Origin: Aestuariivirga litoralis
GTDB taxonomy: Bacteria; Pseudomonadota; Alphaproteobacteria; Rhizobiales; Aestuariivirgaceae
Direction: 5' to 3'
NCBI RefSeq assembly: GCF_003234965.1
Contig: NZ_QKVK01000002.1
Location: 434,001 to 498,000, forward strand
DNA length: 64,000 bases
Shown: positions 47,450 through 62,476 of the stretch, piece after piece
Position numbering within the stretch: the stretch's first letter is position 1
How the letters are laid out: every line of letters starts with the position of its first letter
Made by a program: the position numbers and the translations under genes
The notes under the pieces: model-generated
The model's input: only the letters and a program-made list of their open reading frames with translations
The model's database searches: none
What the model was told of the DNA's origin: nothing

Positions 47450-48564
47450 TCGGCGGCCTCCGGCAGGGCGGTGGGCGTCTTCCCGGCCTTCGCCTTGCGC
47501 GGCAGGCGCGCCAGCCAGTCCGCCAGCGTGCCGACGATGCCCCTGGGCAGGAACAGCGTGACGCAGATGAAGAGCGCCCCCAGAACGAGGAGCCACATGT
47601 CCGGAAAGGCGGCGGTGAAATAGGTCTTGCCGGCATTGACCGTGACGGCGCCGATGATCGGCCCCACCAGCGTGCCGCGGCCGCCCACCGCCGTCCAGAT
47701 GACGATCTCGATGGAATTGGCCGGCGCGAATTCGCCCGGGTTGATGATGCCCACCTGCGGCACGTAGAGCGCACCCGCAATGCCCGCCATGACGGCGGAA
47801 AGCGTGAAGGCGAAGAGCTTCACATGCTCGACGCGGTAGCCGATGAAGCGGGTGCGGCTTTCGGCATCGCGCACCGCCACCATGACCTTGCCCAGCCGCG
47901 AGGCAACGATCCAGCGCAACATCAGGAGGAAGGCGGCGAGGACGATGCAGGTGGCCGCAAAGAGCGCGGCGCGTGTCGACGGCGCCTGGATGCTGAAGCC
48001 GAGGATGTCCTTGAAGTCGGTGAGGCCATTGTTGCCGCCGAAGCCCATGTCGTTGCGGAAGAAGGCGAGCAGCAGCGCATAGGTGAGGGCCTGGGTGATG
48101 ATCGAGAGATAGACGCCGGTGACGCGCGAGCGGAAGGCGAACCAGCCGAAGACGAAGGCGAGGAGCCCCGGCACCAGCATGACCATGAGGCTGGCGAACC
48201 AGAACATGTCGAAGCCGTACCAGTACCAGGGCAGTTCCTTCCAGTTCAGGAAGACCATGAAGTCCGGCAGCACCGGATTGGCATAGACGCCGCGCGAACC
48301 GATCTGGCGCATCAGGTACATGCCCATGGCATAGCCGCCCAGCGCGAAGAAGGCGCCGTGGCCGAGCGACAGGATGCCGCAATAGCCCCAGGCGAGATCG
48401 AGTGCCAGCGCGAGAATGGCGAAGCACAGGTACTTGCCCAGGAGCGGCACGAGATAGTCCGGGATGTGGAAGGCCTGCTCCGCCGGCACCGCCAGATTCA
48501 GCAGCGGCACCAGAAGGGCGAGGCCGAGGATGATCGCCGCGGCGATGAGGGAAAGCCTGCTCAT
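47446..48564 (-). CDS. urtC: Urea ABC transporter permease UrtC
   Basis: A 372-residue LivM-like permease with about ten membrane segments. DLAWGYCGILSLGHGAFFALG and GFGGNNGLTDFKDILGF are characteristic of UrtC. ATG 48564 overlaps the urtB stop by 4 bp. Forms the channel with UrtB. Confidence 0.96.
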   Translation of the reverse strand: MSRLSLIAAAIILGLALLVPLLNLAVPAEQAFHIPDYLVPLLGKYLCFAILALALDLAWGYCGILSLGHGAFFALGGYAMGMYLMRQIGSRGVYANPVLPDFMVFLNWKELPWYWYGFDMFWFASLMVMLVPGLLAFVFGWFAFRSRVTGVYLSIITQALTYALLLAFFRNDMGFGGNNGLTDFKDILGFSIQAPSTRAALFAATCIVLAAFLLMLRWIVASRLGKVMVAVRDAESRTRFIGYRVEHVKLFAFTLSAVMAGIAGALYVPQVGIINPGEFAPANSIEIVIWTAVGGRGTLVGPIIGAVTVNAGKTYFTAAFPDMWLLVLGALFICVTLFLPRGIVGTLADWLARLPRKAKAGKTPTALPEAAE

Positions 48565-50153
48565 GTCTCGACGAACCTGCCCTTGAGGGCAAAGAGGCCG
48601 CGTGGCCGCTTCTGGATGAAGAGGATGATGAAGACGAGGACCAGGATCTTGCCCAGGACTGCACCGGCGAAGGGCTCCAGCAGCTTGTTGACGATGCCCA
48701 GCGTCATCGAGGCCACCAGCGTGCCCCAGAGACTGCCCACACCGCCGAAGACCACGACCATGAAGCTGTCGATGGAGTAGCCTTGCCCAAGGTCGGGTGA
48801 CACATTGTCGATCTGCGACAGGCCGACCCCGGCGATGCCTGCGATGCCGGAGCCCACGGCGAAGGTGAGGGCGCCGATCCACGGCGTGCGGATGCCGATG
48901 GCGGAGGCCATGCGGCGGTTCTGGGTGACGGCGCGGACATGGAGGCCGAAGACCGTCTTGTTGAGGAGGAGATAGAGCGCGAAGAACACGGCGAGCGAGA
49001 ACAGCACCAGCCACAGGCGGTTATAGGTGATCGAGAGCTGGCCAAGCTCGAAGGCGCCCGAGGCCCAGGAGGGGTTGCCCACCTCGCGGTTGGTGGGACC
49101 GAAGATCATGCGCACGCCCTGCTGCAGGATGAGCGACACGCCCCAGGTGGCGAGCAGCGTTTCGAGCGGGCGGCCATAGAGCGGGCGGATGACCGTGCGC
49201 TCGATCAGCATGCCCATCAATGCCGCGACGAGGAAGGCGAGCGGCAGGGCGATCAGCAGCGAAGCATCGAAGAGGCCGGGCGCGCGGGCGCGGATCAGTT
49301 CCTGCACCACGAAGGTGGTGTAGGCGCCGAGCATGACCATTTCGCCATGCGCCATGTTGATGACGCCCATGACGCCGAAGGTGATGGCGAGCCCGATGGC
49401 GGCCAGCAGCAGCACGGAGCCGAGCGAGATGCCGTACCAGACATTCTGCGCCACGTTCCAGTAGGCGAGCGTCGCCTCGATGCCGGAGGCGGCGCGCCGC
49501 GCGCTGTCGGCCACCACGCCCTCGCCCTGCCCGGCGGTGGCGAGGATGGGCAGGACGTCGCGGCTCCCCGTGGCGGCGAGCGTGCTGATGGCGGCGAGCT
49601 TCGCGTCATCCGGACGGTCGGACGAAAGGATGGCGGCGGCGCGGGCGAGCTCGAGGGCGGACTTGACGGTGGCGTCCGTCTCCTTGCCCAGTGCCTCCTC
49701 CAGCGCCGGAAGTGCTGCGGCATCGCGCGATTTCAGCACCGCCTGGGCGGCGGAGAGACGCTTGGCGGGATCGGCGCTGGCAAGCTCCGAGCCACCTGCC
49801 GCGGCCTTCAGCAGGCGGCGCAGCGCATTGTTGATCTTGATCTTGGAGAGATCGGATTTCGGCGCCACGCCCGCCGCTTCACCCGTCACCGGATCGGTGA
49901 GGGCGAGACCATCGCCCGCAGGCACGGCGATGAACACCTGGCGATCGGCCTTTCGCACGTAAAGACTGCCATCGCCCAATGCATCGAGAGCCTTCTGACT
50001 GGCCTCGCCCGGCTCGGCGGCCACCGTCTTGATGGCCTGCTCCATGTCGGCGAGCTTCGCCTGGCCGAGCGCGTTCACCGCCTGTCGCAGATCGGCCAAG
50101 GCCGGGCCGCCTGCGAGCAGGAGCAGCAGAACTGCCGCGATGAGGCGCCGCAT
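48561..50153 (-). CDS. urtB: Urea ABC transporter permease UrtB with long periplasmic N-terminal domain
   Basis: A 530-residue protein. Residues 1-21 are a signal-like segment; 22-230 form a helical, HEAT-like periplasmic region (TDATVKSALELARAAAILS and LAAISTLAATGSRDVLPIL); from about 235 on it is the LivH-like permease with GVMGVINMAHGEMVMLGAY. The extended form is known for proteobacterial UrtB, about twice the size of LivH. ATG 50153 has GGGGAG. Between urtA and this gene lie a 13-bp tandem duplication and a 10-bp stem-loop. Confidence 0.94.
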   Translation of the reverse strand: MRRLIAAVLLLLLAGGPALADLRQAVNALGQAKLADMEQAIKTVAAEPGEASQKALDALGDGSLYVRKADRQVFIAVPAGDGLALTDPVTGEAAGVAPKSDLSKIKINNALRRLLKAAAGGSELASADPAKRLSAAQAVLKSRDAAALPALEEALGKETDATVKSALELARAAAILSSDRPDDAKLAAISTLAATGSRDVLPILATAGQGEGVVADSARRAASGIEATLAYWNVAQNVWYGISLGSVLLLAAIGLAITFGVMGVINMAHGEMVMLGAYTTFVVQELIRARAPGLFDASLLIALPLAFLVAALMGMLIERTVIRPLYGRPLETLLATWGVSLILQQGVRMIFGPTNREVGNPSWASGAFELGQLSITYNRLWLVLFSLAVFFALYLLLNKTVFGLHVRAVTQNRRMASAIGIRTPWIGALTFAVGSGIAGIAGVGLSQIDNVSPDLGQGYSIDSFMVVVFGGVGSLWGTLVASMTLGIVNKLLEPFAGAVLGKILVLVFIILFIQKRPRGLFALKGRFVET

Positions 50154-50167
50154 GGGAACTCCCCAAT

Positions 50168-50193
50168 GTTTGCGAGATCAGTTTGCGAGATCA
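50168..50193. repeat. Perfect tandem 13-bp direct repeat before urtB
   Basis: GTTTGCGAGATCA occurs twice in direct succession, starting 15 bp upstream of the urtB start codon and close to its ribosome site. It may be a recent slippage duplication or a leader feature. Confidence 0.85.
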
Positions 50194-50219
50194 GATTGTG
50201 GTGCAGATCCTCACCCTGC

Positions 50220-50242
50220 CCTCTCCCCCGACGGGGGAGAGG
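50220..50242. repeat. GC stem-loop repeat, family C, copy 2
   Basis: CCTCTCCCCC-GAC-GGGGGAGAGG, the same stem as at 30623-30645 with a different loop. Located between urtA and urtB, it probably limits read-through or protects the urtA mRNA. Confidence 0.7.
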
Positions 50243-50258
50243 AACGGGTCGGGAGATG

Positions 50259-51551
50259 TCAGGCGCCGCACTTGCCGGTGGCGGTGTTGAAGTTGCCGCA
50301 GGACATGGGCGCCCGCCAGTCGGAGATGAGCGGCTTCGATTCCGGCAGGAAGTCCGACCACTCGTCGCCGACGACGAGGCCGGGTGTGGACCACACGATG
50401 TCGAATTGCCCGTTCTCCTGCACCTCGCCGATCAGCACCGGCTTGGTGATGTGGTGGTTCGGCATCATGGTGGAGAAGCCGCCGGAGAGGTTGGGCACCG
50501 AGATGCCGATCAACGCATCGATGACCTTGTCGGGGTCCGTGGTGCCGGCCTTCTCGACCGCCTTCACCCACATGTTGAAGCCGATGTAATGGGCCTCCAT
50601 CGGGTCGTTGGTGACGCGCTTGTCGTTCTTGGTGAAGGCCTTCCACTTCTTGATGAACTCGGCATTCTCAGGGGTGTCGACCGACTGGAAGTAGTTCCAC
50701 GCCGCGAGATGGCCGACGAGCGGCCCGGTGTCGATGCCGGCGAGTTCCTCCTCGCCCACCGAGAAGGCGACGACGGGAATGTCTTCCGCCGAGACGCCCT
50801 GGTTGGCGAGTTCCTTGTAGAAGGGCACGTTGGCATCGCCGTTGATGGTGGAGACGACCGCCGTCTTCTTGCCCGCCGAGCCGAATTTCTTGATGTCGGA
50901 GACGATGGTCTGCCAGTCGGACTGGCCGAAGGGCGTGTAGTTGATCATGATGTCTTCCTCGGCGACACCCTTGGACTTCAGGTAGGCCTCGAGGATCTTG
51001 TTGGTGGTGCGCGGGTAGACATAGTCAGTGCCGGCCAGCACCCAGCGCTGGACCTTCTCGTTGTCGAGCAGGTAGTCGACCGCCGGAATGGCCTGCTGGT
51101 TGGGCGCGGCACCGGTGTAGAAGACGTTGCGCTCCGACTCCTCACCCTCATATTGCACGGGGTAGAAGAGGATGCTGTTGAGTTCCTTGAAGACGGGCAG
51201 CACCGACTTGCGCGACACGCTCGTCCAGCAGCCGAAGACCGCCGCCACCTTGTCCTTGGCGATGAGCTCGCGCGCCTTTTCGGCGAAGAGCGGCCAGTCG
51301 GAAGCGGGATCGACCACCACCGCCTCGAGCTTCTTGCCGAGCAGGCCGCCCTTGGCGTTCTGCTCCTCGATCAGCATCAGCATCACGTCCTTCAGGGTCG
51401 TTTCCGAAATCGCCATGGTGCCCGACAGCGAGTGGAGCACGCCCACCTTGATCGTGTCATCCGCCGCGCGCGCCACGCCGAAGCCGCCGAAGGCCGCACC
51501 CAACGCCACGCCGGCCGCTGCCTGCGCAAAAGCTCTCCTGGTCAAAGACAT
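50259..51551 (-). CDS. urtA: Urea ABC transporter substrate-binding protein UrtA
   Basis: A 430-residue periplasmic protein with a twin-arginine-like start (MSLTRRAFAQAAAGVALGA) ending in ARA-ADDTIKVG. VLHSLSGTMAISETTLKDV, VFGCWTSVSRKSVLPVF and LFYPVQYEGEESERNVFYTG are hallmark UrtA strings and bind urea. ATG 51551 has a GGAGGAAACAGAG site. A sigma-54 promoter sequence stands 50-65 bp upstream, implying NtrC-controlled expression under nitrogen limitation. Confidence 0.96.
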   Translation of the reverse strand: MSLTRRAFAQAAAGVALGAAFGGFGVARAADDTIKVGVLHSLSGTMAISETTLKDVMLMLIEEQNAKGGLLGKKLEAVVVDPASDWPLFAEKARELIAKDKVAAVFGCWTSVSRKSVLPVFKELNSILFYPVQYEGEESERNVFYTGAAPNQQAIPAVDYLLDNEKVQRWVLAGTDYVYPRTTNKILEAYLKSKGVAEEDIMINYTPFGQSDWQTIVSDIKKFGSAGKKTAVVSTINGDANVPFYKELANQGVSAEDIPVVAFSVGEEELAGIDTGPLVGHLAAWNYFQSVDTPENAEFIKKWKAFTKNDKRVTNDPMEAHYIGFNMWVKAVEKAGTTDPDKVIDALIGISVPNLSGGFSTMMPNHHITKPVLIGEVQENGQFDIVWSTPGLVVGDEWSDFLPESKPLISDWRAPMSCGNFNTATGKCGA

Positions 51552-51600
51552 CTCTGTTTCCTCCGTGGACTGTTGTTTCTTTCGTCCGGGGGAAGCCATC

Positions 51601-51831: not shown

Positions 51832-53559
51832 ATGACCGCCATGACCGACACGCCCCGCCACTTCGAAACGCTCGACCGCGCGCAGCGCGCCGCGCTGGCG
51901 CATGTGACGCAGGGCATCTCGCCCTATGCGCTGTGGTCGGCCTATCTCGACTGGGCCACGCATTATGCCATGTCGCCCGGCACGCAGCTCGACGTGGCGG
52001 AGCGCGCGGCGGAGAACGCCGGCAAGCTGTGGCTCTATGCGGCGGCGAAGATGAGCGGGCAGAACCCGGCGCCCCCCTTCCCCGCCAATGGCTGGACGAG
52101 CTTCCAGGAGGACCCGGCGTGGCAGGCCCCGCCGCTGGACCTGCTGCGGCAATGGTACCTCGGCCTCAGCCACCTCGCCGTGTTCGCCGCAGAGGCGCCG
52201 CGCGGCATGCAGACGATCGACCAGACGCGCATGGGCTTCATCACCCGGCACCTGTTGGATGCGCTGGCGCCGTGGAGCAACCCCTTCATCAACCCCGACA
52301 TCTGGAAGAAGGTGCTGGCCGATGGCGGCGCGGGCCTGGCGAAGGGCCTGCAGAACCTCATCGAGGACCGGCAGCGCGAGGCGAGCAGCCAGCCGCCGGC
52401 GGGCGCCGAAGGCTTCGTGGTCGGCAAGACGCTTGCCGCCACGCCGGGCGAGGTGGTGTTCCGCAACGACCTGATGGAACTGATCTGCTATCGGCCGGCA
52501 ACGGAGGCGGTTGCGGCGGAGCCCATCCTGCTGGTGCCGGCCTGGATCATGAAATACTACATCCTCGACCTGTCGCCCGGGAACTCGCTGGTGCGCTTCC
52601 TGGTCGGGCGCGGGCACACGGTGTTCATGATCAGCTGGCGCAATCCGACGGCGGAGGACCGCAACCTGGCGCTCGACGATTATCGCAGCAAGGGCGTGAT
52701 GGCAGCGCTGGACGAGATCACCCGGCTGCTGCCGGGCCGTGGCATCCATGCCTGTGGCTATTGCCTGGGCGGCACCATCCTGGCGATTGCCGCCGCCACC
52801 ATGGCGCGCGACGGCGACAGGCGGCTGGCCTCGCTGTCGCTGCTTGCGGCGCAGACGGATTTCTCGGAAGCGGGCGAGCTGATGCTGTTCGTCGACGACA
52901 GCCAGGTGGCCTTCCTCGAGGACATGATGTGGGACCGGGGCGTGCTGGATACCAAGCAGATGGCGGGGGCCTTCCGCATCCTGCGCTCCAACGAGCTGAT
53001 CCTGTCGCGCATCATCCATGACTACGTGCTGGGCGAGCGCGAGGCGATGACCGACCTGATGGCCTGGAACGCCGACCAGACGCGCATGCCCTATCTGATG
53101 CATTCGCAGTACCTGCGCGGGCTGTTCCTCGAGAACCGGCTCACCGCAGGGCGCTATGCGGTGGAGGGCCGGGTGATCGCACTGCGCGACATCGATGCGC
53201 CGGTGTTCCTCGTCGGAACCGAGAAGGACCACATCGCGCCGTGGCAGTCGGTCTACAAGTTCCGGCTCTTCGCCGACACGGAGGTGACCTTCGTTCTCAC
53301 CACCGGCGGCCACAATGCCGGCATCGTCAGCGAGCCGGGCCACAGGCACCGGTCGTTCCGCATCGGCACCGCGGCGCATGATGCCAAATACGTCGACCCC
53401 GTGAGCTGGGCCGCAGCGGCAGAGCCGCGCGAGGGCTCCTGGTGGCTGGCCTGGGCGGACTGGCTGGAGGCGAAGGGCACCAGGGCCATGGTGGCGCCGC
53501 CGGACATGGACGCCATGCCGAAACTCGGCGCGGCCCCCGGACGCTACGTCTTCACCTGA
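51832..53559 (+). CDS. phaC: Class I poly(3-hydroxyalkanoate) synthase
   Basis: A 575-residue enzyme that polymerises 3-hydroxyacyl-CoA on granule surfaces. The alpha/beta-hydrolase core has the lipase-like box with the nucleophile Cys 311 in GYCLGGTI, the Asp in VGTEKDHIAPW and the His in TTGGHNAGI. The N-terminal ~200 residues are the class I/II domain (PHBC_N, with FINPDIWKK). ATG codons at 51832 and 51841. Thiolase and acetoacetyl-CoA reductase (phaAB) are not adjacent; instead the thiolase of the aromatic module is convergent, 6 bp away. Confidence 0.95.
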   Translation: MTAMTDTPRHFETLDRAQRAALAHVTQGISPYALWSAYLDWATHYAMSPGTQLDVAERAAENAGKLWLYAAAKMSGQNPAPPFPANGWTSFQEDPAWQAPPLDLLRQWYLGLSHLAVFAAEAPRGMQTIDQTRMGFITRHLLDALAPWSNPFINPDIWKKVLADGGAGLAKGLQNLIEDRQREASSQPPAGAEGFVVGKTLAATPGEVVFRNDLMELICYRPATEAVAAEPILLVPAWIMKYYILDLSPGNSLVRFLVGRGHTVFMISWRNPTAEDRNLALDDYRSKGVMAALDEITRLLPGRGIHACGYCLGGTILAIAAATMARDGDRRLASLSLLAAQTDFSEAGELMLFVDDSQVAFLEDMMWDRGVLDTKQMAGAFRILRSNELILSRIIHDYVLGEREAMTDLMAWNADQTRMPYLMHSQYLRGLFLENRLTAGRYAVEGRVIALRDIDAPVFLVGTEKDHIAPWQSVYKFRLFADTEVTFVLTTGGHNAGIVSEPGHRHRSFRIGTAAHDAKYVDPVSWAAAAEPREGSWWLAWADWLEAKGTRAMVAPPDMDAMPKLGAAPGRYVFT

Positions 53560-53565
53560 GGCCCA

Positions 53566-54765
53566 TCACGCCCGCGCCAGCGCCAGCGCCACGCCCTGGC
53601 CCACCCCCACGCACATCGTCGCCAGTGCCAGACGGCCGCCTGACAGGCTGAGGTCGAGGGCTGCCGTTCCAGCCAGCCGCGCACCGGACATGCCGAGCGG
53701 ATGGCCGAGCGCGATGGCCCCGCCATTGGGGTTCACATGCGCCGCATCATCGGCAAGGCCCAGCTGGCGGTGCACGGCCAGCGCCTGCGCCGCGAAGGCC
53801 TCGTTGAGCTCGATGACATCGAACCGGTCGACGGCGAGGCCGAGCCTTGCGCAGAGCTTCTGCGTGGCGGGCACCGGGCCCAGCCCCATGATGCGCGGTG
53901 CTAGCCCTGCCGACGCGAAGCCAAGGATGCGCGCCAGCGGCTGCAGCCCATGGCGCTTCATGGCGGCTTCGGACGCGATGATCAGGGCGGCCGCGCCATC
54001 ATTCACACCCGAGGCATTGCCGGCCGTGACGCTGCCGCCGGCGCGGAAGGGGGTGGGCAGCCTGGCGAGCTGCTCGAGGGTGGTGGCGCGCGGGTGCTCG
54101 TCCTTCGCGACGATGACCGGTTCGCCCTTGCGCTGCGGGAGGGTGACCGGCGTGATCTCGCGGGCGAAGCGGCCATTGCCTTGCGCGGCGATGGCGCGGG
54201 TCTGCGAGCGCAGCGCGAAGGCATCCTGGTCGGCCCGCGAGATGGCGCAGTCGGCGGCGACGTTCTCCGCCGTTTCGGGCATGGAGTCGATGCCGTATTG
54301 CGCCTTGATGACCGGGTTCACGAAGCGCCAGCCGATGGTGGTGTCATGCACTTCCGCGTTGCGCGAAAAGGCTTCGGTGGCCTTGGGCATGACGAAGGGT
54401 GCGCGCGACATGGATTCAACACCGGCGGCGATGGCAAGATCGATCTCGCCCGCCTTGATGGCGCGCGCGGCGATCGCCACCGCATCCATGCCGGAGCCGC
54501 AGAGGCGATTGACGGTGACGCCCGGCACGCTGTCGGGCAAGCCCGACAGCAGCACCGCCATGCGGGCGACGTTGCGATTGTCCTCGCCCGCCTGGTTGGC
54601 GCAGCCGAGAATGACTTCATCCACCGCCGACCAATCGAGGGACGCGTGTTTCTGCATCAGCGCCTTGATGGGGATCGCCGCGAGGTCATCGCTGCGCACG
54701 GAGGAGAGCGCGCCGCCGAAGCGGCCGATGGGGGTGCGGAGGTAGTCGCAGATGAAGGCGTCCAT
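53566..54765 (-). CDS. pcaF: 3-oxoadipyl-CoA/acetyl-CoA thiolase (PcaF/PaaJ type)
   Basis: A 399-residue thiolase: nucleophile Cys 89 in NRLCGSGMDAV, His in GGAIALGHPLG and the second Cys in MCVGVGQG. The start FICDYLRTPIGRFGGALSSV is the form typical of 3-oxoadipyl-CoA thiolases, which cleave to succinyl-CoA and acetyl-CoA. ATG 54765 has AAGGAC. Third gene of the minus-strand half of the aromatic-CoA module (hydratase, dehydrogenase, thiolase). Symbol tentative because a longer-chain 3-oxo substrate is possible here. Confidence 0.85.
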   Translation of the reverse strand: MDAFICDYLRTPIGRFGGALSSVRSDDLAAIPIKALMQKHASLDWSAVDEVILGCANQAGEDNRNVARMAVLLSGLPDSVPGVTVNRLCGSGMDAVAIAARAIKAGEIDLAIAAGVESMSRAPFVMPKATEAFSRNAEVHDTTIGWRFVNPVIKAQYGIDSMPETAENVAADCAISRADQDAFALRSQTRAIAAQGNGRFAREITPVTLPQRKGEPVIVAKDEHPRATTLEQLARLPTPFRAGGSVTAGNASGVNDGAAALIIASEAAMKRHGLQPLARILGFASAGLAPRIMGLGPVPATQKLCARLGLAVDRFDVIELNEAFAAQALAVHRQLGLADDAAHVNPNGGAIALGHPLGMSGARLAGTAALDLSLSGGRLALATMCVGVGQGVALALARA

Positions 54766-54776
54766 CAAGTGTCCTT

Positions 54777-55910
54777 TCACGCGCCGATCAAGTGCGCGAG
54801 CGCGGGCGAAGCTGTGTAGCGGCCCTTGAGATGCGCGGGTGCAGCGGCCTCGCGCGCGGTGAGCGTTGCAAGGATGCGGTCCGCACCATGTGCGCGTGCC
54901 GACTCGAAGGGGCCGCGCGGGAAGTTGAGGCCGAGTTTCAGGGCCGTGTCGATATCGTCCGGCGCGAGCCCGCTCTCCTGCGCGAGGACGGCGGCCTCGT
55001 TGGCGAGCGTGGCCTCGATGCGCAGCGCGATCTCCGCCCCGTCGGCGGGCGCTTCGCCGGGTGTTGCGGGGTGAAGGAAGCCCTGGCCCGACTTGCGGCC
55101 GAGATGGCCGTGGTCCACCTGTTTCTGGAGTGCGGCGAAGACGTGATAGCGGGGATGGCCGTTCATTGCCTGTGACAGGCCGCGCGTGGCGGCAAGGTTG
55201 ATGTCGGCGCCGATCAGGTCGATGAGGCCGAAGGGACCGAGGCGATAACCGGCCTTGAGCATGGCAGCGTCGATGTCTGACGCGCTGCGGCCTTCCTCCA
55301 GCATCGCCAGCGCCTCACCGTAATAGGGCCTGGCACAGCGGTTGACGATGAAGCCCGGCGAATCGCTGCAGGCGATGACCGTCTTGCCTGCCGCCGTCGT
55401 GATGCTGCGCGCGAGATCCACCGCATCGGACGATGCAAGGGGCGGCACGACGAGTTCCACGAGCTTCATCACCGGTGCGGGGTTGAAGAAGTGGAGGCCG
55501 AGCCCGCGCGCGGGATGCGCGAGCCTGGCCATGATGGCGGCGACCGAAAGGGAAGAGGTGTTGGTGGCGAGCACCGCATCGGGGCCCACATGGCGCTCGA
55601 CCTCGGCGAAGAGGGCCTGCTTGACGCCGAGATCCTCGATGACGGCCTCGATCACCAGCCGCGCATCCTTCAGCGCCGCAAGATCGTCGGTGATGGTGAT
55701 GTTGTTCAGAATCGCATCGCGCGCGGCCTCGGTGAGCTTGCCCGCTGTCACGCGGGGTTCGAGGGATTGGGTCAGGCGGGCTTTCGCGCTGTCGCGTGCG
55801 GCGGGCATTGCATCGAAGGCGATCATCCGGTGCCCGGCCTGCGCATAGAGCTGGGCGAGCCCCAGGCCCATGGTGCCGAGGCCCAGCACGGCAATGACGG
55901 GCTTGGTCAT
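54777..55910 (-). CDS. 3-hydroxyacyl-CoA dehydrogenase (PaaH-like)
   Basis: A 377-residue NAD enzyme: VLGLGTMGLGLAQLYAQAG (GxGxxG dinucleotide site), LATNTSSLSVAAIMARL and HFFNPAPVMKLVELV (catalytic His and Asn loop), and a C-terminal second helical domain. Its length, over 310, includes an extra C-terminal repeat as in PaaH. It oxidises a 3-hydroxyacyl-CoA intermediate. Start overlaps the hydratase stop by 4 bp and the gene ends 11 bp before the thiolase, so the three are cotranscribed. Confidence 0.9.
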   Translation of the reverse strand: MTKPVIAVLGLGTMGLGLAQLYAQAGHRMIAFDAMPAARDSAKARLTQSLEPRVTAGKLTEAARDAILNNITITDDLAALKDARLVIEAVIEDLGVKQALFAEVERHVGPDAVLATNTSSLSVAAIMARLAHPARGLGLHFFNPAPVMKLVELVVPPLASSDAVDLARSITTAAGKTVIACSDSPGFIVNRCARPYYGEALAMLEEGRSASDIDAAMLKAGYRLGPFGLIDLIGADINLAATRGLSQAMNGHPRYHVFAALQKQVDHGHLGRKSGQGFLHPATPGEAPADGAEIALRIEATLANEAAVLAQESGLAPDDIDTALKLGLNFPRGPFESARAHGADRILATLTAREAAAPAHLKGRYTASPALAHLIGA

Positions 55911-56665
55911 TGGCCCCTGAACTCCGGCTTGCGCTTCTCCCGGAAGGCGGCGATGCCTTCCGTCTTGTCGGCGCTGTCGAGGAGCTTCTCGAACAGGCTG
56001 CGCTCCAGCGTGAGGGCTTTCGGATCATCGTCGCCATCGACCAGCGCGCGCTTGGCGGCCTGCAGCGCCAGCGGCGCACGGGCTGCGAGTTTCGCGGCCA
56101 GCTTCTCGCCCTCGGGGATGGCGGAGCCTTCGCATCTCCAAGCCGCGATGCCCCAGGCCTCGGCGGTGGCGGCATCGATGATCTCGCCCGTCAGCACCAT
56201 GCGGCTGGCCCGCGCCCGGCCGACGAGCGACAGGAGGCGCTGGCCGCCGCCCGCGCCGGGGATCAGGCCGAGGCTGGTTTCCGGAAGGCCGAAGCGCGCC
56301 GTCTCGCCGGCGATGACGAGGTCCGCCATCAGGGCGAGCTCGAAGCCGCCGCCCAGCGCGAAGCCGTCGACCGCGGCGATGAGCGGCTTGCGGAAGTCGC
56401 GGATGGTCTGCCAGTGCGCCTTGCGCGGATCCGCGGCACCTTCCGCCCGGGTCTTGTGTTCGATCTCGCCGATGTCGGCGCCCGCCGCGAAATTGCCCTC
56501 CGCCCCGCAGAGCAGCACGGCGCGGCAGGAGGAGTTGACGGCCGCGCCCATCAGCGCGGCGGCGAGCTGGCCCAGCAGTTCGGTGTTGAGCGCGTTGCGC
56601 GCGGCCGGGCGGTTGAGCGTGAGCCGCAGCCAGCCGTCGTGGCGGTCGATGAGCAGGGTGTCCAT
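55907..56665 (-). CDS. Enoyl-CoA hydratase/isomerase
   Basis: A 252-residue crotonase: NFAAGADIGEIE and GFALGGGFELALMADLVIA (oxyanion hole and Glu) and the second acid in FGLPETSLGLIPGAGG. Both catalytic glutamates of a true hydratase are present. First gene of the minus-strand half; its start codon is 28 bp from the left arm of the palindromic operator that separates it from the monooxygenase gene. Confidence 0.88.
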   Translation of the reverse strand: MDTLLIDRHDGWLRLTLNRPAARNALNTELLGQLAAALMGAAVNSSCRAVLLCGAEGNFAAGADIGEIEHKTRAEGAADPRKAHWQTIRDFRKPLIAAVDGFALGGGFELALMADLVIAGETARFGLPETSLGLIPGAGGGQRLLSLVGRARASRMVLTGEIIDAATAEAWGIAAWRCEGSAIPEGEKLAAKLAARAPLALQAAKRALVDGDDDPKALTLERSLFEKLLDSADKTEGIAAFREKRKPEFRGQ

Positions 56666-56692
56666 GCCGGCATGATGCCCCCGCGGAGAGAA

Positions 56693-56723
56693 ATTTCAAG
56701 TTCGAATATTTTGAACTTGAAAT
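56693..56723. promoter_or_regulatory. Candidate MarR operator of the aromatic-CoA divergon
   Basis: ATTTCAAGTTC and GAACTTGAAAT form perfect 11-bp arms around a 9-bp AT-rich centre. The site fills the AT-rich core of the 111-bp region between the divergent hydratase and monooxygenase genes and likely covers both promoters. The MarR gene at 59059 is in the plus-strand operon. Confidence 0.7.
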
Positions 56724-56776
56724 ATTAAAATCTGCGTGCGAGCCTCACCGAACCCTGCTCACCGGGAGATTTTCGC

Positions 56777-59062
56777 ATGCGCATCCTGTGCCTCGGCGGC
56801 GGCCCCGCCGGACTTTATTTCGCGATCTCGATGAAGCTGCGCGACCCGGCGCATGAGGTGACCGTGCTGGAGCGGAACCGCGCCAATGACACGTTCGGCT
56901 GGGGTGTGGTGCTGTCCGACGACGCGCTCTCGCGCATGCAGAAGAACGACCCCAAGAGCACCGAGGCCATCCGCAGTCATTTCGCCTACTGGGACGACAT
57001 CGCCGTGGTGCATGACGGCCAGCGCACCGTTTCCGGTGGCCACGGCTTTGCGGGCATCGGGAGGAAGCAGATGCTGATCCTGCTGCAGGCACGCGCCCGC
57101 GAACTGGGCGTGGACCTGCGGTTCGAGACCGAGTTCAAGTCGGCCGAGGAATATGCGAAGGAGTATGACCTGGTGGTCGCCTGCGATGGCATCAATTCGG
57201 TGGTGCGCAAGGAATTCGCCGGGGTCTTCAGGCCGGACATCGACATGCGGCTGTGCAAGTTCATCTGGCTCGGCACGCACCAGAAATTCGACGATGCCTT
57301 CACCTTCATTTTCGAGAACACCGCGCATGGCTGGGTGTGGGCGCATGTCTACCAGTTCGATGCGGACACCGCGACCTTCATCGTCGAATGCCTGCCGGAG
57401 ACCTGGGATCGCTGGGGCTTCGCGGACATGTCGAAGGAGGAGACCATCGCCACCTGCGAGGCGATCTTCGCCAAGCACCTCGGCGGCCATGAACTGATGT
57501 CGAATGCCGCGCACCTGCGCGGCTCCGCCGTGTGGATGCAGTTTCCGCGGGTGATCTGCGAACGCTGGTATCACAACAACATCGTGCTGATGGGCGATGC
57601 GGCAGCAACGGGGCATTTCTCCATCGGCTCTGGATCGCGGCTGGCCTTCGACAGTGCCATTGCGCTGGCGGACTATCTCCACTCCGAGCCGACGATGGAG
57701 CAGGCCTTCCAGCGCTACCAGGACGAGCGGCGCGTCGAGGTGCTGCGCCTGCAGTCCGCCGCGCGGAACAGCCTCGAATGGTTCGAGCAGGTGGAACGCT
57801 ACCTCGACCTGCCGCCGCTGCAGTTCGCCTATTCGCTGCTCACCCGCAGCCAGCGCATCAGCCACGAGAACCTGCGATTGCGCGACCCGAAATGGCTGCG
57901 CGAGGCCGAGGACTGGTTCCAGGAACAGGCGGGCGGGCAAAAGGGCCGTGCGCCGATGTTCGCGCCGTTCCGGCTGCGCGACATGAGGCTCAAGAACCGC
58001 CTCGTCGTCTCGCCCATGGCGCAATACAAGGCGGTCGACGGCTGCCCCACCGACTGGCACTTCGTGCATTATGCCGAGCGCGCCAAGGGTGGTGCGGGGC
58101 TGGTCTATACCGAGATGGCCTGCGTCTCTCCCGACGGCCGCATCACGCCGGGCTGCCCGGGGCTTTACGCACCGGAACACGAGGCGCTGTGGAAGCGCCT
58201 CGTCGAATTCGTCCATGCCGAGACGACCGCGAAGATCTGCTGCCAGATCGGGCATGCGGGCCGCAAGGCCTCGGTGCAGGTGCCGTGGGAGGATGACGAG
58301 ATGCCGCTCGCCACGGGTGGCTGGGAGACGATCGGTCCCTCCGCCATCGCCTGGTCGCCGAAGCACAAGGCACCGCGCGAGATGACTCGGGGCCACATGG
58401 ACAAGGTCACCGCGCAGTTCGTCGCCGCCACCGAAATGGCGAAGCGCGCGGGCTTCGACATGGTGGAACTCCATGCGGCGCACGGCTACCTGATCTCGAG
58501 CTTCATCTCACCCGTCTCGAACCGCCGCACGGATGACTATGGCGGCAGCCTCGAGAACCGCATGCGCTGGCCGCTCGAGGTGTTCCGCGCCATGCGCCAG
58601 GCCTGGGGCGAGGAGAAGCCGATGTCGGTGCGCATTTCCGCCACCGACTGGGTGGGGGCGGATGGCATCACCCCGGAGGATGCCGTCACGGTGGCGAAGA
58701 TGTTCCACGGCGCAGGGGCCGACATCATCGACGTCTCGGCCGGGCAGACCACGATCGACGCGAGGCCCGTCTATGGCCGGATGTTCCAGACGCCGTTCAG
58801 CGACCGCATCCGCAACGAGGCGGGGATTGCCACCATGGCGGTGGGCAACATCACCGAGGCCGACCAGGTGAACTCGATCCTGCTCGCCGGCCGGGCCGAC
58901 CTCGTCTGCCTGGCGCGGCCGCACCTGGCCGACCCCTACTGGACGCTGCATGCGGCGGTGCAGATGGGTGACCAGGCAAGCGAGTGGCCGCTGCCCTATC
59001 TGCGCGGACGCGACCAGGCCTTCCGGCTCAGGGCCAAGTCCACCGAGGCGATCCGCGCATGA
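56777..59062 (+). CDS. 2-aminobenzoyl-CoA monooxygenase/reductase-type fusion (salicylyl-CoA 5-hydroxylase/oxidoreductase family)
   Basis: A 761-residue two-domain flavoprotein. Residues 1-380 are a PHBH-type FAD monooxygenase: [18 protein letters not shown] (FAD), [12 protein letters not shown], and [19 protein letters not shown]. From about 391 an old-yellow-enzyme domain follows: [48 protein letters not shown] and [13 protein letters not shown]. The fusion is that of Azoarcus 2-aminobenzoyl-CoA monooxygenase/reductase, which hydroxylates and hydrogenates the ring in one protein; single-domain relatives hydroxylate salicylyl-CoA. It heads an operon with MarR, hydratase, acyl-CoA dehydrogenase and RidA. 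A CoA ligase to make the substrate is not in the window. Confidence 0.88.
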
Positions 59063-59514
59063 CCGCGCCCGACATCGACCCGCTGTCGAAACGCCGCCTG
59101 AAGATGTGGATCAGGCTCCTCGGCGTCGCGCGCGCCGCCGAGAGCAGCCTGCGCGAATATCTCCGCGTCGAGCACGGCACCACGCTGCCGCGCTTCGACG
59201 TGATGGCAGCGCTCTACCGCCGCCGCGACGGGGCCACCATGTCGGAGCTGAGCCGCATGCTGCTCGTCTCCAACGGCAACGCGACGGCCGTGGTCGACCG
59301 GCTGGAGAAGGACGGGCTGGTGCGCCGCACGGCATCGGAGACCGACCGCCGCACCGTCTATGTGGCGCTCACGCCCGAGGGCTTGCGCCAGTTCGAGCGC
59401 TTGGCGGCGGACCATGAGCGTGAGATCAATGCCCTGTTCAGCGACCTGAGCGAGCAGGACGTGGAACAGGTCACGGCGCTGTTGAAGCGCATGGGCAAGG
59501 GAGACAAGGCATGA
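59059..59514 (+). CDS. MarR family transcriptional regulator of the aromatic-CoA operon
   Basis: A 151-residue winged-helix protein: [26 protein letters not shown] opens the DNA-binding domain, [21 protein letters not shown] is the recognition helix, and [18 protein letters not shown] the wing. Start and stop overlap both neighbours by 4 bp (ATGA), so its level follows the operon, fitting autoregulation. The palindrome at 56693-56723 is the probable target and a CoA thioester the probable ligand, as for other MarR proteins of aromatic-CoA pathways. Confidence 0.9.
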
Positions 59515-60323
59515 CGTCGCTGGCTTCATTCAAGCCGCAGCATTTCCTGTGGGTGGTCAATGACCGCATCGCGGTGGTGCGGCTCAACCGTCCGGACCGC
59601 AAGAACCCGCTCACCTTCGAGAGCTATGCCGAGCTGCGCGACACCTTCCGCAACCTCGTCTATGCGACGGACGTGGATGTCGTCGTCTTCGCCTCGAACG
59701 GCGGCAATTTCTGCTCGGGCGGCGACGTGCATGACATCATTGGGCCGCTGGTCGGGCTCGACATGAAGGGCCTCCTCGCCTTCACCCGCATGACGGGCGA
59801 TCTGGTGAAGGCCATGATCGCCTGCGGCAAGCCGATCATCGCGGCGGTCGATGGCGTGTGTGTCGGGGCCGGCGCCATCGTCGCCATGGCCTCCGACATG
59901 CGGCTGGCGACACCGGAGGCCAAGGCCGCCTTCCTGTTCACGCGCGTGGGGCTCGCGGGCTGCGACATGGGGGCCTGTGCCATGCTGCCGCGCATCATCG
60001 GGCAGGGGCGCGCGGCGGAACTTCTCTATACGGGCCGGGTGATGACGGCGGCGGAGGGTGAGCGCTGGGGCTTCTGGAATGCGCTGCATGATGCGGCTGC
60101 ACTGGAGGCTGAAGCGATGAAGCTCGCCCGCGCCCTTGCCGCAGGCCCCACCTTCGCCCATGGCATGACCAAGACGCAGCTGAACCAGGAATGGAACATG
60201 GGCCTCGAACAGGCGATCGAGGCGGAGGCGCAGGCCCAGGCCATCTGCATGCAGACCAGGGATTTCGAGCGCGCCTACCGGGCCTTCGTGGCCAAGCAGA
60301 AGCCGGTCTTCGAGGGGAACTGA
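59511..60323 (+). CDS. Enoyl-CoA hydratase/isomerase family protein
   Basis: A 270-residue crotonase-fold enzyme: [15 protein letters not shown] and [19 protein letters not shown] (oxyanion hole; the first catalytic Glu is replaced by Ala/Val in GAGAIVA), with [17 protein letters not shown] at the second catalytic position (Asp in place of Glu). The residue changes suggest isomerase, ring hydrolase or another crotonase reaction rather than simple hydration. ATGA overlap with marR; followed 1 bp later by the acyl-CoA dehydrogenase. It may act on the alicyclic intermediate after ring reduction. Confidence 0.85.
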
Positions 60324-60324
60324 G

Positions 60325-61464
60325 ATGGCGGACACGACATATCTCGACTGGCCCTTTTTCGAGCCGCGCCACAAGGCACTGGCGGAGGAGCTTCATGCCT
60401 GGTGTCGGGCCAATCTCACCGGCCATCATGATGACGTGGACACGGCCTGCCGCGCGCATGTGAAGACGCTCGGTGCATCCGGCTGGCTTAAACACACGGG
60501 CGCTGCCGATGGCGAGAGGCTCGATGTGCGCACGCTGTGCCTGATCCGCGAGACCATCGCGCAATATGACGGGCTTGCCGAATTCTCCTTTGCCATGCAG
60601 GGCCTCGGCATGGGGGCGGTGACGCTGTTCGGCACGCCCGAGCAGAAGCAGTGGCTCGCCCGCACCCGCAGCGGCGCGGCGATCGCGGGGTTTGCGATCA
60701 CCGAGCCCGAGGCGGGGTCCGATGCCGCCGCTGCGAAGATGACGGCAACGCGCGTGCAGGGCGGCTTCGTGCTGAGGGGCGAGAAGACCTACATCTCCAA
60801 TGGCGGCATCGCGGATGTCTATGTCGTCTTCGCCCGCACCGGCGAGGCGCCGGGGGCGAAGGGGCTCTCCGCCTTCCTCGTGCCGGCGGACACCAAGGGC
60901 CTGCGCGTTGCCGCGCGCATCGACGTGATGGCGCCGCATCCGCTGGCGCTGCTCGATTTCGACACTGTGGAAGTGCCCGAGGCTGCGCTGATCGGCAAGC
61001 CGGGGGATGGCTTCAAGATCGCCATGTCGGTGCTGGACGTGTTCCGCTCCACGGTCGGTGCCGCCGCACTTGGTTTCGCGCGCCGCGCGCTGGACGAGAC
61101 GCTGACCCGGGTGAAGACGCGCAAGGTGGGCGGGGCGCCGCTCGCTGACCTGCAGATGGTGCAGGGCCACATCGCCGACATGGCGCTCGACATCGATGCT
61201 GCGGCATTGCTCGTCTATCGCGCCGCCTGGACCAAGGACTCAGGTGCGCCGCGCATCACGCGCGAGGCCTCGATGGCCAAGCTCGACGCGACGGAGGCTG
61301 CGCAGCGCGTGATCGACATGGCGGTGCAGCTGCATGGCGGCGATGGCGTGAAGAGTGGCAGCGTGGTGGAGCATCTCTACCGCGAGATCCGCGCGCTGCG
61401 CATTTACGAGGGCGCAAGCGATGTGCAGCGCGTGATCATCGCCCGCGCCGTGCTGGGAGGCTGA
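60325..61464 (+). CDS. Acyl-CoA dehydrogenase
   Basis: A 379-residue FAD enzyme: [20 protein letters not shown] and [20 protein letters not shown] (FAD loop), and the catalytic Glu in [22 protein letters not shown]. Length is normal for the family. It desaturates an acyl- or alicyclic-CoA, passing electrons to ETF. ATG 60325 has GAGGGGAAC; RidA follows after 2 bp. The substrate is presumably a cyclohexane-type CoA ester of the module. Confidence 0.92.
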
Positions 61465-61466
61465 AG

Positions 61467-61877
61467 ATGGGTGAGTCACCACATGAGTTCCTTCACCCGC
61501 GCAACTGGAAGCCGGCGCTGGGCTATGCCAATGGCGTGGCCGCTTCGGGCCGCATGATCTTCTGCGGCGGCCTCATCGGCTGGAACGCGCAGCAGGAATT
61601 CGAGTCCGACGACTTCATCGACCAGGTGGCGCAGACGCTGCGCAACATCGTGGCCGTGCTGGCGGAGGCGGGGGCGGGGCCGGAGCACATCGTGCGCCTC
61701 ACCTGGTATGTCACCGACAAGCGGGAATACCTGGCGCGGCTGAAGGAGCTGGGCCGCGTCTATCGCGAGATCATCGGCAAGCACTTCCCGGCCATGGCGC
61801 TGGTGCAGGTGGTGGCCCTGGTCGAGGACCGCGCCAAGGTGGAGATCGAGGCGACGGCGGTGGTGCCGGAGGGATAA
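61467..61877 (+). CDS. RidA family protein (enamine/imine deaminase type)
   Basis: A 136-residue YjgF/YER057c/UK114 protein: GVAASGRMIFCGGLIGWNAQQ, NIVAVLAEAGAGPEHIVRLTWYV and the signature PAMALVQVVALVEDRAKVEIEATAVVP. The Arg that binds the carboxylate in RidA proper (R105 in the usual numbering) is not evident in the MALVQVVALV strand, so this is another Rid subgroup. Members hydrolyse reactive enamines to ketones and ammonia. Placement as last gene after a 2-aminobenzoyl-CoA-type reductase suggests it removes the amino group of the alicyclic enamine. GGGAGG ribosome site. Confidence 0.88.
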   Translation: MGESPHEFLHPRNWKPALGYANGVAASGRMIFCGGLIGWNAQQEFESDDFIDQVAQTLRNIVAVLAEAGAGPEHIVRLTWYVTDKREYLARLKELGRVYREIIGKHFPAMALVQVVALVEDRAKVEIEATAVVPEG

Positions 61878-61944: not shown

Positions 61945-62397
61945 TCAGCCGCGCTGCACCGGCTGGTGCGGGTTCGCGGCATCGTCCTTCGGCAGGAAGC
62001 TCATCAGCTTGGCGCGCACGTCGTCGGGCCAGGTCATCGAAGTGTGCTTGTCGAGCCAGCTTGCGGCAAGAACCTGATGCACCGTCCAGCGCAGCTCGTC
62101 GCCGCACCAGATCTCATGGTCGAGCGCCACCGAGGAGCGGCCCACCTTCTTCACCGTGACGCGGAAGGTGAGCTTGTCGCCGAAGAAGGAGGGCTTCGAG
62201 AAATTGCAGGTCAGGTGCACCGTGGGCGTGCCCCAGCGCTCCTTCCAGATGATCTCGTGCCAGGGATAGCCGATCCACGACCAGAACTCCTCCACCACGC
62301 CGTTGAGCAGGTTGAGATAGGACGGATAATAGGCGGTGCCCGAGATGTCGCAGTCGCCGAAGCGGAGCATGCGATCGGTGGTGAAGCTGACGGCCAT
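61945..62397 (-). CDS. Acyl-CoA thioesterase (4-hydroxybenzoyl-CoA thioesterase family)
   Basis: A 150-residue hot-dog-fold protein: LRFGDCDISGTAYYPSYLNLLN carries the catalytic Asp of the FGDCD motif, and the following strand FFGDKLTFRVTVKKVGRSSVALDHEI is typical. It hydrolyses an aryl- or acyl-CoA. Its position facing the aromatic-CoA operon suggests release of CoA from dead-end intermediates, but it is on the other strand. ATG 62397 chosen by homology; the longer frame upstream is a shadow. Confidence 0.88.
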   Translation of the reverse strand: MAVSFTTDRMLRFGDCDISGTAYYPSYLNLLNGVVEEFWSWIGYPWHEIIWKERWGTPTVHLTCNFSKPSFFGDKLTFRVTVKKVGRSSVALDHEIWCGDELRWTVHQVLAASWLDKHTSMTWPDDVRAKLMSFLPKDDAANPHQPVQRG

Positions 62398-62476
62398 GGC
62401 AGGGTCCCGAATGTGAAGCGCCGGGCACGTCGCCATGCCCGGCGCGACTGTAACATGCGAGAGGGTAAATGCCAGC

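Follow-up and report, generated by a model that had tools for sequence, protein, structure and literature searches.

How is the amino group of anthranilate released once the acid has been activated as a coenzyme A (CoA) thioester? The question is raised by a gene module of Aestuariivirga litoralis (genome G000, 4.23 Mb), which lies in the stretch of 64,000 nucleotides analysed here as the window (contig NZ_QKVK01000002.1, called C12 below, positions 434001-498000), and in which a monooxygenase/old-yellow-enzyme fusion heads an operon that ends with a gene for a Rid-fold protein (Table 1). The product of such a fusion, known from the chemistry of Azoarcus, is 2-amino-5-oxocyclohex-1-ene-1-carbonyl-CoA, an enamine that is by its structure a cyclic 3-aminoacrylyl thioester. 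An earlier note on this DNA had proposed that RidA hydrolyses this enamine. Our analyses led to a modified answer, which we hold to be rather probable: that a clade of Rid proteins lacking the active-site arginine is dedicated to the enamine CoA thioester of the fusion, and that its member in the window, which has a methionine in place of that arginine (the Met type), would hasten deamination within the anthranilate-CoA pathway.

The protein belongs to the Rid superfamily by sequence (PF01042, 80 bits against a cut-off of 27) and fell below the model of Rid family detoxifying hydrolases (TIGR00004, 62.3 bits against 106.25). Its predicted structure is a confident Rid fold (predicted local distance difference test, pLDDT, 92), and the top PDB matches include YabJ and RidA. 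When it was aligned to solved Rid structures, Met110 fell on the arginine of YabJ that is equivalent to Arg105 of RidA, a residue that holds the carboxylate of the substrate and on which activity depends (PMC4433059; here and below, papers are cited for those parts of their text that were available). Because of this methionine, identity with canonical RidA was rejected, and what stands of the earlier proposal is that deamination is still likely, by a specialised Rid. Among the fusion-linked Rids of loci L040-L127, methionine occupied the position in 67 of the 68 in which the residue could be read, the haloarchaeal one having leucine; the Rid of L111 is cut off before this point, and L089 holds one more Rid, with asparagine, at a distance of 5 kb upstream of its fusion. 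Methionine was found in 150 of 155 distinct domains scoring at least 100 bits, whether linked to a fusion or not (the others being 2 Ile, 1 Thr, 1 Leu and 1 Ser), while the Glu120 position was glutamate in all 155 strong domains that contain it, and a tyrosine or phenylalanine was kept at that of Tyr17. In the nearest other Rids, 38 weaker matches, the Arg105 position mainly held Ser, Ala or Asn (27/38) and not Arg, so that loss of the arginine extends beyond the Met clade. A tree of the Rids, built from few columns and with many open forks, supported a clade of proteobacterial and Deinococcus proteins (97, SH-aLRT), beside which the actinobacterial and haloarchaeal ones were placed without firm support.

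The partnership of this Rid with the fusion was borne out by two even samples of genomes. Across 349 Pseudomonadota genomes, searched for the fusion at E <=1e-200 and for the Rid at E <=1e-22 with a profile of 27 fusion-linked Rids, 54 had both, 1 had a fusion without the Rid, none had a Rid without the fusion, and 294 had neither; the fusion was present in 17 families, and both proteins in 16 of them. The Rid gene lay within 15 kb of the fusion, on the same contig, at 48 of 57 fusion places, and methionine was found in all 27 Rids read out of the 54 genomes with both (G325 has a second, weaker Rid with serine). A sample of 289 genomes of the class gave 47 with both, 6 with the fusion only, 6 with the Rid only and 230 with neither. 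Fisher values were 1e-40 (class) and 5e-63 (phylum), with genomes treated as independent though they share ancestry. Clade Rids in these counts were defined by profile score, with residues read for a part of them, and the window genome is included in both samples and in the profile. The Rid cuts, at 138 bits for the class and E 1e-22 for the phylum, were fixed after a gap in the class scores had been seen; at 106 bits, G103 and G290 would join the class genomes with the Rid only. The class count takes three sub-cut-off or split matches as fusions (G164, G074 and G017) and leaves out three partial ones of 507 to 543 bits (G206, G220 and G123). For plasmids, at least 36 of 60 listed fusion records were also found among 60 listed Rid records, a lower bound that was not used. 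Such co-occurrence argues for a common pathway, not for a particular reaction.

Gene order told a similar story. Contigs end within 3.1 kb past the fusion in 9 of 80 related loci; in the other 71, the Rid gene was within the locus in 62 (counting the truncated one of L111), just past or across the locus edge in 7, as judged from coordinates, and elsewhere, apparently on another contig, in L097 and L103. Given these 80 loci, the arrangement is not due to chance, and in a tree of 61 fusions the module was present in several well-separated clades. A Rid beside every fusion was a supposition that had to be rejected, as the class sample had one within 20 kb on the same contig at 29 of 55 fusion places. 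A set of 40 fusion-centred loci fetched by choice comprised 27 with a Rid near and 13 without (L225-L237). In L228 the rest of the module is present and the Rid is 47 kb away, and the other 12 fusions stand alone; a strong clade Rid (at least 164 bits) occurs elsewhere in every one of the 13 genomes, and the best Rid was of the Met type in all 9 of the 13 that were read. These lone fusions (L225-L227, L229-L237) are about 46-51% identical to that of the window and lie away from any crotonase, MarR or ligase module; L227 and L237 have a similar neighbour beside the fusion, whose start we take to resemble a gamma-glutamyltransferase. Comamonas had seemed an exception until its Rid was located 9.8 kb past the fusion. 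That Met-type Rids are confined to this pathway was likewise rejected, since others stand beside acyl-CoA dehydrogenases (L184, L194) or a 2-oxoacid oxidoreductase (L180). These three Rids away from a fusion are of Met or Ile type, and the neighbours of the one in L180 are 2-oxoacid oxidoreductase-like and rubrerythrin-like proteins.

As to the substrate, the earlier note had suggested a search just outside the window for a 2-aminobenzoate-CoA ligase, and a candidate was found about 31 kb to the right of the fusion, in a separate operon (C12:523876-525522). It is the nearest to the fusion of 16 AMP-ligase places in the genome and is 52% identical to the ligase of plasmid pAL1 of Arthrobacter Rue61a, against about 30% for the next of the 16; with TIGR02262 it scored 363.5 bits, slightly below the cut-off of 375, and it is thus identified by likeness. 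Anthranilate-CoA ligase activity was reported for ARUE_113p00220 of Rue61a (PMC3534580), which we equated with the pAL1 ligase by its position beside the fusion. Directly after the ligase gene comes one for tryptophan 2,3-dioxygenase (TDO; 523024-523860, TIGR03036 427 bits, cut-off 391), and genes for KynB (TIGR03035 266 bits, cut-off 223) and KynU (TIGR01814 321, cut-off 246) are neighbours at C12:370726-372572, so by gene content the genome would encode a route from tryptophan to anthraniloyl-CoA. A ligase at least 73% identical was present within 61 of the 80 related loci and TDO within 17, and KynU or TDO occur near fusion modules in further clusters too.

The two operons also have a DNA signal in common. 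A 12-mer, TTCAAGYTYRAA, stands twice, facing, in the promoter between the divergent operons of the window, and once before the ligase-TDO operon, in the interval that separates the ligase gene from its upstream neighbour. Exact sites in the genome number five, the remaining two being within predicted genes, and the reversed pattern, used as a control over the whole genome, gave zero. Of the 80 related loci, 71 had the motif in the 250 bp before the fusion, 8 had no copy there and 1 had too little upstream sequence. A set of 128 loci, many of which are related and which amount to 2.46 Mb, gave 140 matches (a perfect palindrome scoring once on each strand), whereas ten base shuffles of these loci gave between 0 and 2. 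The same motif at both promoters suggests that one regulon joins the fusion operons and the ligase-TDO operon, and the MarR-family protein encoded in the module is its probable reader. Ligase, TDO, KynB, KynU and the common motif together support the earlier suggestion of anthranilate, and make anthranilate derived from tryptophan the likely substrate.

Set beside what was observed, i.e., gene content, co-occurrence, the methionine and the common motif, every reaction of the pathway that we infer is conditional, the Rid step and the ring opening above all. TDO, KynB and KynU would make anthranilate, as their gene content predicts, the ligase would convert it to anthraniloyl-CoA, and the fusion would hydroxylate and reduce this to the 2-amino-5-oxocyclohexene thioester. 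The Met-type Rid would then speed hydrolysis of the enamine to ammonia and 2,5-dioxocyclohexane-1-carbonyl-CoA, with the equivalents of Glu120 and Tyr17 presumably holding water and substrate. As a thioester, the product of the fusion offers no free carboxylate to an arginine, which would explain the methionine at the Arg105 position. The acid of the proposed diketone is C7H8O4, and a C7H8O4-CoA is present in Rue61a cells grown on anthranilate, interpreted by the authors of that work as possibly a cyclohexanedione-carboxyl-CoA (PMC3534580). The crotonase-fold protein has Ile and Phe at both hydratase glutamate positions, in all 7 of 7 aligned, and so does not qualify as a hydratase, two glutamates being catalytic in crotonase-fold hydratases; the PaaF-type hydratase of the divergent operon keeps both. 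By analogy with BadI, which opens the ring of a beta-keto thioester hydrolytically, the crotonase-fold protein is the best candidate for ring opening, and would yield a C7 4-oxo-dicarboxylyl-CoA, on which the dehydrogenase, hydratase, second dehydrogenase and thiolase could run beta-oxidation. The end point of the earlier note, 3-oxoadipyl-CoA, is not supported: it is a C6 acid where the ring-opened acid is C7, and family models identified no decarboxylase among the eight genes of the module. The thiolase itself scored above the cut-offs of both 3-oxoadipyl-CoA thiolase models, NF006551 and TIGR02430.

Several points tell against deamination by the Rid. We know of no assay of a Met-type Rid. 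Proteins of this type occur in genomes without a fusion, or apart from it; in the class sample, a strong Rid was absent in 6 of 53 fusion genomes and present in 6 of 236 others. Four of the genomes with the fusion only (G035, G074, G236 and G287) are no more than 86% complete or have as their sole Rid one truncated by the end of a contig, and for G234 and G241 neither explanation applies. A few strong Rids carry Ile, Thr or Ser at the Arg105 position, the Thr-bearing one being from G206, a genome with a partial fusion match. The R104A mutant of RutC was inactive on 3-aminoacrylate, likewise a beta-enamine (PMC8113886), and the Arg-less Rids that have been tested were without deaminase activity (PMC9714295, PMC4433059). 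Rue61a also grows on anthranilate without its plasmid and has chromosomal paralogs (PMC3534580), so the plasmid genes need not be the source of its C7H8O4-CoA. With the arginine needed for deaminase activity lost, and with co-occurrence implying a common pathway and nothing further, a Met-type Rid might be dedicated to the pathway in another capacity, acting on a later or tautomeric intermediate (for instance in a keto-enol step or in ring opening) or serving the fusion as a chaperone or sensor, with deamination spontaneous or performed by the crotonase. We consider this possible, if doubtful: the Glu120 and Tyr/Phe17 positions are kept, hence the site has not decayed, and the same Rid is found in two types of cluster with differing downstream genes. 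In addition, the enamine is the fusion's own product and is unstable at a pH under 5 (PMC3534580, which in the text available does not mention neutral pH), so that its conversion within the cell might call for a catalyst.

Protection is the accepted role of RidA (PMC4433059), and Rid reactions also proceed spontaneously (PMC9714295), from which one might suppose that the Rid is a broad imine scavenger shielding pyridoxal phosphate enzymes while deamination on the pathway needs no enzyme. Such a protector would be expected in genomes without the fusion, yet a clade Rid at E 1e-22 was absent from all 294 genomes in the phylum sample that lack the fusion, and the window genome has seven other Rid-domain places; this explanation is quite unlikely. 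About as unlikely is a module for salicylate, in which the fusion would perform salicylyl-CoA 5-hydroxylation and the Rid have no nitrogen-linked role. It would agree with the NCBIfam name of NF006101, salicylyl-CoA 5-hydroxylase, and with Cupriavidus metallidurans CH34, which has annotated abm genes and grew on salicylate, not on anthranilate (PMC8879955), two facts that count against anthranilate as the substrate. The name of a model alone is no proof of substrate, however, and a phenol would leave a Rid nothing to act on; the ligase resembles anthranilate ligases of the tested type and shares its operon with TDO, the identical motif precedes both operons, and ligase and TDO recur with the module in the numbers given above, with KynU or TDO in further clusters. 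Deamination by the Met-type Rid is the reading that we favour. Deletion of the Rid gene, proposed in the earlier note, could be masked by spontaneous hydrolysis, so a null phenotype would be weak as refutation; with DadY, a cost was visible only in competition (PMC9714295).

Two actinobacterial plasmids, pAL1 and pRLCBG43, show the fusion in another setting. Both have, as the window genome does, a ligase, a fusion and a Met-type Rid; pAL1 bears the genes for the lower quinaldine/anthranilate pathway of Arthrobacter sp. Rue61a, and its fusion is 50% identical to that of the window. The other neighbours on both plasmids are an FAH-type hydrolase, a cupin and an acyl-CoA thioesterase, and no crotonase or acyl-CoA dehydrogenase was annotated in the 20-kb stretches seen. 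In L124 and L127, the actinobacterial cluster reads Rid, FAH-type hydrolase, cupin, acyl-CoA thioesterase, ligase and fusion, and these genes suggest that the first step is shared and that the lower pathway then differs. A Rid that stays constant while later steps seem to change is what would be expected if it acts on the direct product of the fusion.

Table 1. Features of the module and its surroundings (window coordinates)
Feature	Position	Strand	Evidence or remark
PcaF-type thiolase, third gene of divergent operon	53566..54780	-	NF006551 712 bits (cut-off 605), TIGR02430 681 (597)
3-hydroxyacyl-CoA dehydrogenase	54777..55910	-	PF02737, PF00725
PaaF-type enoyl-CoA hydratase	55907..56665	-	PF00378; best PDB match 4fzw_A PaaF
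Two facing operator-like motif copies TTCAAGYTYRAA, divergent promoter	56695..56721	56695-56706 +, 56710-56721 -	
Monooxygenase/old-yellow-enzyme fusion, 2-aminobenzoyl-CoA monooxygenase/reductase type	56777..59062	+	NF006101 1264 bits (cut-off 1078)
MarR-family regulator	59059..59514	+	PF12802, PF01047
Crotonase-fold protein	59511..60323	+	NF006107 483 bits (cut-off 330)
Acyl-CoA dehydrogenase	60325..61464	+	PF00441, PF02770, PF02771
Rid-fold protein, Met type (Met110 = RidA Arg105 position)	61467..61877	+	PF01042 80 bits
Hotdog (4HBT) thioesterase, convergent	61948..62430	-	PF13279; module membership uncertain

Family models recovered all eight genes where the earlier note had placed them. 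The rightward operon, in the order fusion, MarR, crotonase, acyl-CoA dehydrogenase and Rid, is tight, with gaps of -4, -4, +1 and +2 bases (the MarR start was set at an ATG internal to its open reading frame), and the leftward one runs from hydratase through 3-hydroxyacyl-CoA dehydrogenase to thiolase with 4-base overlaps. None of the 23 NCBIfam models listed for the 3-hydroxyacyl-CoA dehydrogenase was reached at its cut-off, and the top model for the hydratase, NF007239, gave 271 bits, short of 371. The fusion is the sole copy in the genome above the NF006101 cut-off. Its closest relative among the fetched loci, 93% identical, is from a metagenome-assembled genome of Aestuariivirga (L040). 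In many relatives a thioesterase gene stands ahead of the Rid gene on the same strand, unlike the convergent one of the window. Many related modules (L120, L121, L199, L200 and others) have a short-chain dehydrogenase/reductase (SDR) gene between fusion and MarR, which is not present in the window. In L195 (G164), SDR, MarR, crotonase, dehydrogenase, ligase, TDO, KynU and Rid stand together with no adjoining fusion match; the only match in that genome at E 1e-150 is divergent and 1.8 Mb away. The fusion of the window is 84-85% identical to Rhodobacter-type fusions and about 50% identical to those of two genomes of its own order (G199 and G293; L223 and L224), and from these identities the module may have been acquired by transfer.

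Further afield, a class I-like polyhydroxyalkanoate (PHA) synthase gene (51832-53559; TIGR01838 470 bits, below the cut-off of 623) adjoins the thiolase gene, and to its left two genes (48561-51599) resemble, by eye, a urea-type ABC transporter. About 23 kb past the window and adjoining TDO, C12:521444-523006 (L012:5445-7007) encodes an aldo/keto reductase domain with a C-terminal Rid domain, which has asparagine at the Arg105 position; G001 (L142) has a Rid with asparagine in an open frame of similar length.

By its gene content, the module is an Azoarcus-type anthranilate-CoA (abm) cluster. The abm cluster of Azoarcus evansii, described by Schuhle et al. in 2001, reportedly comprises the fusion, a ligase, beta-oxidation genes, MarR, an ABC-transport gene and a "putative translation inhibitor protein". 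Translation inhibitor protein is an old name for Rid proteins. The cluster is thus already known, and the Rid gene is not new to the pathway. The window genome differs from Azoarcus evansii in that its ligase is in the separate TDO operon, 31 kb off and under the same motif, and in that the hydratase, 3-hydroxyacyl-CoA dehydrogenase and thiolase genes are divergent. Ligase, fusion and beta-oxidation are borne out by a review (PMC4539516), and the main text of the Rue61a paper, in the part available, does not mention RidA/YjgF (PMC3534580). In the open-licence literature, no paper was found that assigns a Rid to the anthranilate-CoA pathway or reports the methionine, subscription papers being mostly outside this coverage. 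The Met-type Rid clade, its co-occurrence with the fusion, the motif that the module has in common with the ligase-TDO operon, and the non-hydratase crotonase appear to be new.

Known Rid proteins offer the closest comparisons. RutC, the 3-aminoacrylate deaminase of E. coli, has the Rid fold and a substrate with a beta-amino acrylate pattern like that of the fusion product, but its Arg104 is present and needed, and it acts on a free acid, not a CoA thioester (PMC8113886). AmnE, the 2-aminomuconate deaminase, is a Rid-fold deaminase on the pathway of aromatic breakdown (PMC6742747, PMC6449761), but it keeps the pocket arginine, Arg117 (PMC6742747), and its substrate is a ring-cleaved acid. Rid4-Rid7 are, like the Met type, without Arg105 and with the glutamate kept; by their published description, Rid4 and Rid7 have Trp at this position and Rid5 and Rid6 are variable (PMC4433059).

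The breakdown of tryptophan that uses anthraniloyl-CoA monooxygenase/reductase was omitted by pathway curators "due to a lack of knowledge" (PMC9007349), and the Rid groups without the arginine "remain mysterious" (PMC4433059). The near-perfect partnership (54/55 fusion genomes, 0/294 others), together with a change of residue in the catalytic site, links these two gaps. Our wider proposal, for which the scales are evenly balanced, is that the fusion-linked Rids form a separate Arg-less subfamily with a near-fixed methionine and are CoA-thioester enamine hydrolases, which would supply the missing deamination step in proteobacteria, actinobacteria, Deinococcus and a haloarchaeon (with Leu), the extension beyond the proteobacteria being drawn from the few plasmids seen. 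If true, a Rid group without Arg105 would be given a function for the first time; Rid chemistry would then cover CoA thioesters as well as small imino acids, and an on-pathway step in addition to damage control. The linkage to Rid might also help annotators to separate anthranilate-type from salicylate-type fusions.

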